DNA of 64,000 nt from Oceanospirillaceae bacterium (GTDB lineage: Bacteria > Pseudomonadota > Gammaproteobacteria > Pseudomonadales > Balneatricaceae). Under the pieces are notes generated by a model. The model did no database searches and was not told where the DNA came from. It saw only the letters and a program-made list of their open reading frames with translations. Position numbers and translations under genes: made by a program. Positions 7,787 to 64,000 of this stretch are shown piece after piece (position 1 is the first letter of the stretch; every line of letters begins with the position of its first letter). The stretch lies in assembly GCA_013373085.1 (NCBI GenBank), contig JABXIM010000028.1:33235-97234 (forward strand), read 5' to 3'.

Positions 7787-7878
7787 CATGGCAGGCCTGC
7801 CTCGGTCACGCACCTATGCCCGGGTGGGCCTGCCTGTCCCCGCTACCGCTACCTTTCGCCTCCCCTAACCTTACGCCC

Positions 7879-7911
7879 ATGGCTCATGGCTCATGGCTCA
7901 TGGCTCATGGC
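7879..7911. repeat. Tandem heptamer array (ATGGCTC)n
   Basis: Nearly five copies of the 7-bp unit ATGGCTC in the accC-prmA intergenic region, about 80 bp before the prmA start. The repeat supplies false upstream ATG codons to gene callers, which explains the MAHGSWLMA leader of the track ORF. A 7-bp unit changes frame with each copy, so it is not a coding repeat. Copy number is likely variable. Confidence 0.85.
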
Positions 7912-46612: not shown

Positions 46613-46636
46613 ATACCACTTACCACTCACCACTAG
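46613..46636. repeat. Degenerate heptamer repeat at the relA stop codon
   Basis: Three imperfect 7-bp units (ATACCAC, TTACCAC, TCACCAC on the plus strand; consensus TGGTNAG on the relA strand) begin in the relA stop codon itself. The unit is the same as the long exact array after nadC (TGGTTAG). Confidence 0.6.
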
Positions 46637-48921
46637 GTCGTGAACCCGCTGCGCTGGCGGTGCACGTCGATCACATTGGGAATCTGGTTGATCTTGTCCA
46701 TGATGCGGCCAAGCAGTTCCAGGCGGGATATCTCGATGGTGATCGACAGCCGGGCGATATTGCTCTTGCGATCGGTCAGGGTGTTGGCCGCCAGAACGTT
46801 GAGGTTGCTGCTGGCCAGCTCCATCATGATATCGCGCAACAGGCCCGAACGGTCGAATGCCTCGATCATGATATCGACCGGATAGGTGGCTTCGCTCTTC
46901 TCGCCCCAGTCTACCTCGATCATCCGCTCCGGCTCCTGCTCGCGCAGCCCCAGCGCATTGCTGCAATCCTCGCGATGAATCGATACCCCGCGTCCCTGGG
47001 TGATATAGCCGACGATGGGATCGCCCGGCACCGGCTTGCAGCAGCTGGCCATGACGGTCAGCAGGTTGCCGACACCGCGGATGCGTATCCCTTCGTCTGC
47101 GCTCCCCGTATCCCGGGGTGCCGATGCCGGCAGTTCGAGGTCGAGCTGTTCGTCGTGCTGATCGACCTCGACCTGCCGCTGGGCGGCATTGATGATCTGC
47201 GACAGACGCAGGTCGCCGGCGCCAAGCCCGGCGTACATGTCTTCGATGGCGCGATAATGCAGGTCGTGCGCGATCCGGCCCAGGTTGATCTCACGGATAT
47301 CCAGCGCCAGACGCTTGAACTCCCGCTCGACGATATGGCGTCCGGCATCGGCATTCTGCTCCCGCGCCTGGGTCTTGAACCAGTGCGAGATCTTGGCCCG
47401 CGCCCGCGATGTGGTGACGTAGCCGAGGTTGGCGTTGAGCCAGTCTCGGCGTGGCTGCGCTTCCTTCGCGGTCATGATCTCGACCTGATCGCCGGTCTGC
47501 AGTGCACGGGTCAGCGGGATGATGCGTCCGTTGACCTTGGCGCCGCGGCAACGATGGCCGATTTCGGTATGCACACGATAGGCGAAATCCAGTGCCGTGG
47601 CGCCATTGGGCAGGTCCAGCACATGGCCGTCCGGCGTGAAGACGTATACCCGGTCCTGGGCGACGTCGCCACGCAGCATCTCGCCGAAGGCTTCGCTCTG
47701 TCCAAGGTCGTCGTGCCACTCGAGCACCTGGCGCAGCCAGGCGATCTTGTCTTCGTAGGAGGTGCTGCGACTGTTGGTGTCGGTCCCCTTGTAAAGGTGG
47801 TGGGCACAGACGCCCAGCTCCGCTTCCTCGTGCATGTCGTGGGTGCGGATCTGAATTTCCAGCACCTTGCCCTCGGGCCCGATCACGGCGGTGTGCAGCG
47901 AGCGGTAGCCGTTGGGTTTGGGCGACGCGATGTAGTCGTCGAATTCGTGGGGAATATTGCGCCAGAGACCGTGGACAATGCCCAGCGCGGTATAGCAGTC
48001 GCGGGTTTCAGGCACCAGAATCCGCACCGCGCGCACATCGTAGACCTGACTGAACTCGATATTCTTGCGCTGCATCTTTCGCCAGATGCTGTAGATATGC
48101 TTGGCACGCCCCATCACGTCGCCATCGATATGGACGGCCTGGAGCTCGCCCTTGAGGAGCTCGACCACCTTGTCGATGTATTCCTGGCGGTCGAGGCGTT
48201 TCTCGTCCAGCAGCTTGGCGATTTCCTTGTAATCGTTCGGCTTGAGGTAACGGAACGACAGGTCCTCCAGTTCCCACTTGATATGACCGATGCCAAGCCG
48301 GTGTGCCAGCGGCGCGTAGATGTCGAAGACTTCCCGGGCCACCAGGTAACGCTTGCGCCTGGACCCGGTCTTGACGCCACGAATGGCGCAGGTGCGCTCG
48401 GCGATCTTGATCAGGGCGACGCGAACGTCGTCGATCATCGCCACCAGCATCTTGCGTACGTTGTCGACCTGGTTGACGCCGGTACCGAGGACCGTTTCCT
48501 CGAAGCGGGGATTCTTGCGCGTGCCGATGGCTGCCATCTGCAGCACCCCGTCGATCAGCTGCGCCGCTTCGCCACCGAAGAGCTCCGAGACCCGCGCCAG
48601 GCTCAGCTTGCCTTCGCGGACCGAGCGGTAGAGGATCGCCGCGACCAGGGTGACCTGATCCTGCTGCAGTTCGGCCAGTATGCTGGCCATGTCGAGGCCG
48701 GTGCGATAGCTGCCCGTGGCCTCGTTGGTCCTGGCGGACCAGAGATCGTCATCGTTACCCCTGACCGCCGCCTGCTCCTGGGCGTTATGGACCAGTTCAC
48801 AAGCCCGGCGAATTTCATCGATATCGGCGATCTGGGCCTGCTGCTGCAGCTTCTCGAGCCACAACTCCAGATCCACACTGCCATCCTCGCGGACGGGATG
48901 GTCTTCTCTTACTTTTACCAT
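46633..48921 (-). CDS. relA: GTP pyrophosphokinase RelA
   Basis: Ribosome-associated (p)ppGpp synthetase of the stringent response; 762 aa from ATG 48921. Domains in order: an inactive-type HD region, the synthetase domain (GRAKHIYSIWRKM, DVRAVRILV) with the acidic EFDD motif that marks monofunctional RelA rather than SpoT, a TGS domain (VYVFTPDGHVLDLPNGATALDFAY), a zinc/ACT region with MASCCKPVPGD, and a C-terminal ACT domain (AFDRSGLLRDIMMELASS). The longer track start lacks a ribosome site. It lies 289 bp downstream of cysM, with a terminator between. Confidence 0.96.
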   Translation of the reverse strand: MVKVREDHPVREDGSVDLELWLEKLQQQAQIADIDEIRRACELVHNAQEQAAVRGNDDDLWSARTNEATGSYRTGLDMASILAELQQDQVTLVAAILYRSVREGKLSLARVSELFGGEAAQLIDGVLQMAAIGTRKNPRFEETVLGTGVNQVDNVRKMLVAMIDDVRVALIKIAERTCAIRGVKTGSRRKRYLVAREVFDIYAPLAHRLGIGHIKWELEDLSFRYLKPNDYKEIAKLLDEKRLDRQEYIDKVVELLKGELQAVHIDGDVMGRAKHIYSIWRKMQRKNIEFSQVYDVRAVRILVPETRDCYTALGIVHGLWRNIPHEFDDYIASPKPNGYRSLHTAVIGPEGKVLEIQIRTHDMHEEAELGVCAHHLYKGTDTNSRSTSYEDKIAWLRQVLEWHDDLGQSEAFGEMLRGDVAQDRVYVFTPDGHVLDLPNGATALDFAYRVHTEIGHRCRGAKVNGRIIPLTRALQTGDQVEIMTAKEAQPRRDWLNANLGYVTTSRARAKISHWFKTQAREQNADAGRHIVEREFKRLALDIREINLGRIAHDLHYRAIEDMYAGLGAGDLRLSQIINAAQRQVEVDQHDEQLDLELPASAPRDTGSADEGIRIRGVGNLLTVMASCCKPVPGDPIVGYITQGRGVSIHREDCSNALGLREQEPERMIEVDWGEKSEATYPVDIMIEAFDRSGLLRDIMMELASSNLNVLAANTLTDRKSNIARLSITIEISRLELLGRIMDKINQIPNVIDVHRQRSGFTT

Positions 48922-49148
48922 GGCACTAAGCCACTCCTGTATTCGCGGAAACTCTGTCGCTGTTTCCGGATGGCTCGTCCATCTTGCTTCCCTTCGAAAC
49001 CCGACGGCGACCACCTGACTTGCCTATTATTCTTGTATAAAAAACGCCGACAAGTGGCCTGTCAGGGGCCGGCGGCGGACAAGCGGCACATTCTAGACGT
49101 TTCGACATGCAAGCGCGAGCAAGTTCCATGCGCGACGAAACAGTCCGC

Positions 49149-63096: not shown

Positions 63097-63936
63097 ATGC
63101 TGACTGATCAGGATCTGAAAGACACCATCACCCAGAGCGTTGCCATTGCCCTGTCCGAAGATATCGGCGACGGCGACATTACCGCCCGCCTGATCCCGGC
63201 CGAACAGCCCGGCCATGCACGGGTGATCTCGCGGGAGCGGGCCGTCATCTGCGGACAGGACTGGGTCAACGAGGTGTTCCGGCAGGTAGATCCGAACGTA
63301 GAAATCATCTGGCACGTCAGCGACGAAACCCTCGTCAAGTCCGACCAGCTGCTGTTCGAAGCCAGGGGTTCGGCACGCTCGCTGCTGACCGCCGAGCGCG
63401 CCGCGCTGAACTTCCTGCAGACGCTCTCCGGCACCGCCACCGTCAGCCGCCACTACGCTGACCTCGTCAAGGACACCGGCGTACGGCTGCTCGATACCCG
63501 CAAGACCCTGCCCGGCCTGCGCAAGGCGCAAAAATATGCCGTCACCTGCGGCGGCTGCTTCAACCACCGCATCGGCCTCTTCGACGCCTTCCTGATCAAG
63601 GAAAACCATATCCTCGCCTGCGGCGGCATCGCCGCGGCCATCGAAACCGCGCGCGCAAACGAGCCCGGCAAGCCGGTCGAGATCGAAGTCGAAAACCTGG
63701 CCCAGCTCGACGAAGCCCTCGCCGCCGGCGCCGACATCGTCATGCTCGACAATTTCAGCCTCGAGGATATGCGCACCGCGGTCAAAACCACCGCGGGTCG
63801 CGCCAAGCTGGAAGCATCCGGCGGTGTGAACGAAGAAACCCTTAAAGGAATTGCCGAAACCGGCGTGGATTATATTTCCATCGGCGCGCTGACCAAGCAT
63901 TGCCAGGCTGTCGATCTGTCGATGAGGCTGGTTTAA
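63097..63936 (+). CDS. nadC: Nicotinate-nucleotide pyrophosphorylase
   Basis: Converts quinolinate and PRPP to nicotinate mononucleotide, third step of NAD synthesis. The product is 279 aa from ATG 63097. Motifs include [75 protein letters not shown], and [12 protein letters not shown]. The track start 60 nt earlier is unsupported. An exact heptamer array begins 1 nt after its stop. Confidence 0.96.
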
Positions 63937-63937
63937 G

Positions 63938-64000
63938 TTAGTGGTTAGTGGTTAGTGGTTAGTGGTTAGTGGTTAGTGGTTAGTGGTTAGTGGTTAGTGG
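63938..64000. repeat. Exact tandem heptamer array (TTAGTGG)n after nadC
   Basis: Nine perfect copies of the 7-bp unit TTAGTGG fill the window from 1 nt after the nadC stop to the edge, so the true length is unknown. The G-pairs every 7 nt could form a two-layer G-quadruplex. The unit is the same as the degenerate repeat at the relA stop codon. Confidence 0.95.

Follow-up and report, generated by a model that had tools for sequence, protein, structure and literature searches.

The 64,000-nucleotide stretch analysed here (the window) ends in a perfect tandem array of the heptamer TTAGTGG, which begins one nucleotide behind the stop codon of nadC and is absent from the same site in congeners. 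The array is one of a class of heptanucleotide repeats known from Xanthomonas, Nostoc and Beggiatoaceae that has received little study. Arrays of its family, with the general unit TNAGTGG, are found in many phyla, show a strand-specific bias towards the region behind stop codons that is shared by a second unit, are homogeneous within each locus, and turn over fast between species. The account that we consider probable is that TNAGTGG arrays are born by slippage, and that they arise or survive preferentially in the untranslated mRNA behind stop codons.

The gene nadC (63097–63936, + strand, 279 aa, stop codon TAA at 63934–63936) encodes a carboxylating nicotinate-nucleotide diphosphorylase, as identified by NCBIfam model TIGR00078 (310 bits, with a cut-off of 198). 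A lone G at 63937 (+ strand) separates the stop codon from the first full unit, and positions 63938–64000 (+ strand) are (TTAGTGG)9, with period 7 and 100% exact copies. Runs of this kind are expected from base composition about 1e-26 times in 5.8 Mb. The original prediction of at least nine exact copies, starting 1 nt past nadC and leaving the window, was therefore accurate. The window stops at position 97,234 of contig C156, whose length is 97,234 bp; hence, the array leaves the contig and not just the window. Reading beyond that point leads to contig C29, which carries 11 TTAGTGG copies at its end (L019:6331–6408, reverse strand). The C29 gene located just past these copies encodes a 113-aa protein; in six of six congeners, this gene lies next to nadC and converges on it. 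Because both contig ends bear TTAGTGG and are neighbours by congener gene order, they are the two sides of one array inside a convergent gene pair, with doubt limited to how many copies it truly contains. In the 113-aa gene, the stop codon TGA doubles as the start of a TGAGTGG unit and is followed by degenerate copies, so that sense-strand copies are found behind both convergent genes.

A degenerate form of the unit had also been proposed to abut the relA stop codon, and this was confirmed. The relA gene (46633–49014, − strand, identified with NCBIfam) ends in a TAG (46633–46635) that is the first codon of a TAGTGG repeat, and a short array, TGG-TGAGTGG-TAAGTGG (46616–46632, − strand), lies directly 3′ of it. 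The run that starts in the relA stop codon thus reads TAGTGG-TGAGTGG-TAAGTGG. Elsewhere in the genome, TAAGTGG and TGAGTGG arrays are present, but exact (TTAGTGG)3 or longer was found at no genome site besides the nadC array (C156 and C29 ends). The TNAGTGG family occupies about 16 places in the genome, nearly all intergenic, in the form of TAAGTGG, TGAGTGG and shorter mixtures. Seven arrays, all in sense, start no more than 25 bp past a stop codon: those of relA (whose array includes the stop codon), nadC (1 nt), C82 (4), pilB (5), C238 (5), C59 (15) and C242 (23). Head-to-tail 7-nt copies, intergenic and present at several loci, are the features of heptanucleotide simple sequence repeats or STRRs.

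Comparison with other species indicates that the nadC array is young and that arrays turn over fast. The nadC intergenic region lacks a TTAGTGG array in six of six congeners. Inspected by eye, these gaps contain instead a REP-like palindrome (G001, G003 and G005), an intrinsic-type terminator (G002, G003, G004 and G006) and, in G002, another heptamer, AATCACA. When nine arrays of the genome were searched for in the orthologous gaps of G005, the closest relative, a single one was conserved, the array split between contigs C185 and C197; the arrays of nadC, relA, pilB-pilC, C59, C82, C84, C153 and C238 were missing. Contigs C185 and C197 are both broken within a TAAGTGG array, and G005 has both flanks adjoining around an intact array. 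In the opposite direction, G005 arrays were considered if the window's genome had a clear orthologous gap: one was common (C185), four were absent and one was replaced by (CACGCCC)8. One array locus is common to G001 and G002, with differences in copies and purity. In Xanthomonas, 83% of the repeats have the same gene context in both of two species (PMC4692102), so turnover differs by lineage.

The composition of the arrays is also informative. Among the 54 arrays that reach five copies or more, 41 are made of one unit variant throughout, while random dealing of variants gives 0.25. Arrays are thus uniform within and different between loci, so each must have grown from its own seed; together with fast turnover, this points to slippage. 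The recent, local expansion that had been suggested for the nadC array agrees with its perfection, its absence from all six congeners and the predominance of single-variant arrays elsewhere.

The position of arrays with respect to genes was analysed in a set of 84 TNAGTGG arrays from 80 loci. As a null, the same arrays were re-inserted at random non-coding positions and genes were called again, a procedure that removes the artefact of stops made by the array itself. Long open frames were used as genes, a crude definition that is identical in data and null. When the G-rich strand is the coding strand (sense), 10 of the 84 arrays overlap a stop codon (null, 0.5) and 19 start 1–15 bp behind one (null, 3.0); taken together, the figure is 29 against 3.5. 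The antisense orientation yielded 6 against 3.3, near chance. Sense to antisense numbers per unit were 9:0 for TGAGTGG, 16:2 for TTAGTGG, 2:1 for TAAGTGG and 7:3 for TCAGTGG, the last of these being biased even if it contains no sense stop codon. Within 50 bp upstream of start codons, sense arrays are fewer than expected (5 observed, 10 expected). A second unit of the same genus, TGANTGG, was examined in G001 and G002, both single-contig genomes. Of its 31 arrays, nine lie in sense and start at most 20 bp past a stop codon (null, 0.7), and seven more lie in sense and start at most 60 bp past one (null, 1.5), which makes 16 of 31 against 2.2; antisense counts were 0 within 20 bp and 1 in total. 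The sets are partly non-independent, as some arrays are shared or paralogous. Hence, the preference for gene ends postulated in the original prediction exceeds random insertion and is repeated with a second unit. GGGNATC-type repeats are likewise placed on the sense strand, no more than 50 bp past a stop codon.

Heptanucleotide repeats are common in some bacteria (PMC4692102, PMC4679880), and have been known since the discovery of cyanobacterial STRRs with no accepted cause. The GGGAATC repeats of Xanthomonas and the GGGGA(C/T)T repeats of Nostoc lie on the sense strand at most 50 bp from stop codons, with stop overlaps and convergent pairs, and no function was found for them (Rehm et al. 2015, PMC4692102). 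Preference for stop codons has thus been published already for GGGAATC, a unit without a sense stop codon (PMC4692102). The TNAGTGG family differs in having two-G runs rather than runs of three or more, with no convincing quadruplex, in that the unit usually has stop codons, in its much faster turnover between sister species and in its presence in many phyla. A G-quadruplex had been envisaged from the GG found every 7 nt and was discarded: TTAGTGG offers two-G runs only, with 5-nt loops, whereas GGGNATC-type repeats have at least four runs, each of three G or more; its G4Hunter score is 0.71, compared with 1.14 for GGGAATC and 2.29 for GGGGATT; and RNAfold with quadruplexes allowed chose none for the TTAGTGG array.

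Other known systems show partial resemblance. The TAACTGA direct repeats of marine Beggiatoaceae, cyanobacteria and Bacteroidetes lie near start codons, sometimes over stop codons (MacGregor 2015, PMC4679880). Like TNAGTGG, they have a 7-nt unit with stops in all frames, a patchy distribution over distant phyla and frequent overlap with the stop of the gene before them. Unlike TNAGTGG arrays, which are longer and lie behind stops, they have 2–6 copies and are mostly found just upstream of starts, a location where sense TNAGTGG arrays are fewer than expected. Cyanobacterial STRR sequences and long SSRs of 5–11 nt are likewise tandem and intergenic, with heptamers as the commonest size in rich genomes according to the portions of PMC4692102 and PMC4679880 that cite them; their units are different, and those portions describe no positional rule for STRRs. 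REP and BIME elements with their Y1 transposases are also dispersed intergenic repeats, and occupy the same gaps behind genes of sister species; they are, however, single palindromes that a transposase moves, rather than tandem heptamers. Novelty lies in the TNAGTGG family itself, its spread over phyla, the use of a second unit in the random-insertion test, and the speed of turnover inside one genus.

On these grounds, the untranslated DNA behind nadC would have contained a short seed, from which the TTAGTGG array grew recently and locally, presumably by strand slippage; this account requires no particular function with respect to nadC. Arrays are born and lost quickly, and build up behind stops in the orientation that makes the G-rich strand the coding one. 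The site behind a stop codon is transcribed but untranslated, so that an array growing there would break no gene. Tolerance is nonetheless insufficient to explain the strand bias because tolerance alone picks no strand, and stop codons in the unit are not a full explanation because TCAGTGG and GGGAATC have none in sense. A G-rich non-template strand, in DNA that is transcribed but no longer followed by ribosomes, is the classical setting for R-loops. Behind the last ribosome, naked G-rich RNA might form R-loops and leave single-stranded DNA prone to slippage, in this orientation only; alternatively, a milder survival effect might cause the bias. Some facts sit badly with this account: the unit length of 7 nt, rather than 5, 6 or 8, is unaccounted for; the presence of one family in so many loci and phyla exceeds simple local slippage unless the unit is especially prone to expansion; and most Xanthomonas repeats, as mentioned above, keep their context.

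We also considered that the arrays might be functional 3′ end elements, in which a G-rich array and a downstream C-rich partner make a long RNA hairpin that stabilises mRNA or ends transcription on both sides of a convergent pair. The complementary unit (CCACT) is indeed found in non-coding DNA downstream of 16 G-rich TNAGTGG arrays and upstream of none (6 and 0 if both flanks have at least 50 bp of non-coding DNA), with figures of 8 and 0 for TGANTGG, and the nadC array can fold with its degenerate partner into a long hairpin (−43.3 kcal/mol, z −2.6 compared with shuffles). Convergent array pairs match those of Xanthomonas, where 70 and 75 cases are known and where transcripts start or end in repeats more than in controls (PMC4692102). 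Partners located exclusively downstream are what the sense rule predicts when both convergent genes carry an array. The majority of arrays, however, lack an inverted partner. The U-tract terminators found behind nadC in congeners prompted the idea that arrays replace terminators, which was abandoned: intrinsic terminators (a G+C-rich hairpin with a U-run) follow 2 of 32 arrays and 18 of 468 other stops, a frequency equal to background without enrichment or depletion. One G005 array even lies between the stop codon and a conserved terminator, that is, upstream of a terminator that has been retained. Most arrays have gone from a sister species, and no regulatory role was found in Xanthomonas (PMC4692102). 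Altogether, a functional role of this kind seems unlikely. No Rfam family matched above the gathering score in L018, L019 and L158–L160.

A different type of selection is conceivable if arrays are kept as tandem back-up stops, as the unit contains TAA, TAG or TGA and its length is not a multiple of 3, thus closing all three frames. The stop codon of the gene lies inside the array at relA, at the convergent 113-aa gene, at G005 L207 and at G001 L275 together with G002 L283, and the bias is stronger in units with a sense stop (27:3) than in TCAGTGG (7:3), a difference that is small in numbers. The tendency shown by TCAGTGG and by Xanthomonas GGGAATC without any sense stop weakens this view, and 9 to 20 copies are far above need; we regard it as improbable. 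Chances are poorer for active dispersal by a dedicated enzyme, telomerase-like or a transposase, with stop codons as landing sites. One unit family does occur at unrelated loci of one genome and in many phyla, REP-like elements and Y1 transposases exist in these genomes, sometimes in the same gaps, and some TGATTGG arrays of G001 and G002 lie within larger repeated stretches. Neither constant flanks nor target duplications were seen, unit and length vary among arrays, and Y1 transposases (PF01797) are found in all seven congeners, array-free ones included, an observation that led us to reject them as the agents of dispersal. Finally, artificial lengthening of the array at a contig end during assembly is hardly credible. 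The array closes a contig in a 249-contig draft, and five known contig ends (C156, C29, C185, C197 and C214) fall within heptamer arrays. The two ends considered here are, however, independent, carry an identical unit and are joined by gene order, and similar arrays are found inside contigs in this genome and in the single-contig genomes G001 and G002.

Beyond the genus, TNAGTGG in four copies was detected in more than 120 genome-contig stretches, among the matches listed, and these matches include Planctomycetes, Bacteroidota, Chloroflexi, Cyanobacteria, Acidobacteria, Verrucomicrobia-like bacteria, Firmicutes and Proteobacteria. The distribution is patchy, as among 194 other genomes that belong to the order of the window organism just 4 have it; in 721 kb of randomly sampled contigs, few arrays were found. 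A tentative speculation is that one process, mutational or selective, follows the direction of transcription in many phyla and, irrespective of the exact unit, makes 7-nt G-rich repeats grow in untranslated DNA just behind stops (for instance, R-loop slippage where polymerase outruns the last ribosome). The strand rule, observed for two units in one genus, in many phyla and in the published Xanthomonas and Nostoc data, makes the question testable: either untranslated transcription behind the stop drives repeat growth or arrays merely survive best there. On the practical side, arrays would serve as sensitive markers for strain typing; they also break draft assemblies, as the five contig ends located in heptamer arrays indicate.

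Additional observations concern neighbouring repeats. In G005, REP-like palindromes (TAGGAGCGGCGCC... and TAGGAGCCCG...) start at stops or directly behind them at some loci (L229, L233 and L158). These palindromes fill gaps where G000 has heptamer arrays, and all congeners encode Y1 transposases (PF01797). The possibility that REP elements lend their own TAG to the host gene as a stop was dismissed, as it concerns single loci (2 of 32 and 1 of 27 TAGGAGC motifs). The TGATTGG arrays L267, L268, L273 and L279 of G001 and G002 sit in a repeated stretch of about 600 bp, with several copies that are 73–90% alike; this stretch might be a mobile or cassette element not yet recognised as such. Exchange of the unit at one site is illustrated by L253 (G000 C106), with (CACGCCC)8, and its sister L209 (G005 C2), with TGAGTGG/TTAGTGG. 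Different heptamers may also lie side by side: at G000 C214:19565–19630 (L031:6064–6131), (TGAGTGG)3 is followed at once by about nine GTAAGCC copies that close the contig, and G002 L280 has TGATTGG and then GTAAGCC. The window itself harbours another heptamer array, (CATGGCT)4.9 at 7875–7911, with an unrelated unit that contains ATG and lies seemingly upstream of the following gene.
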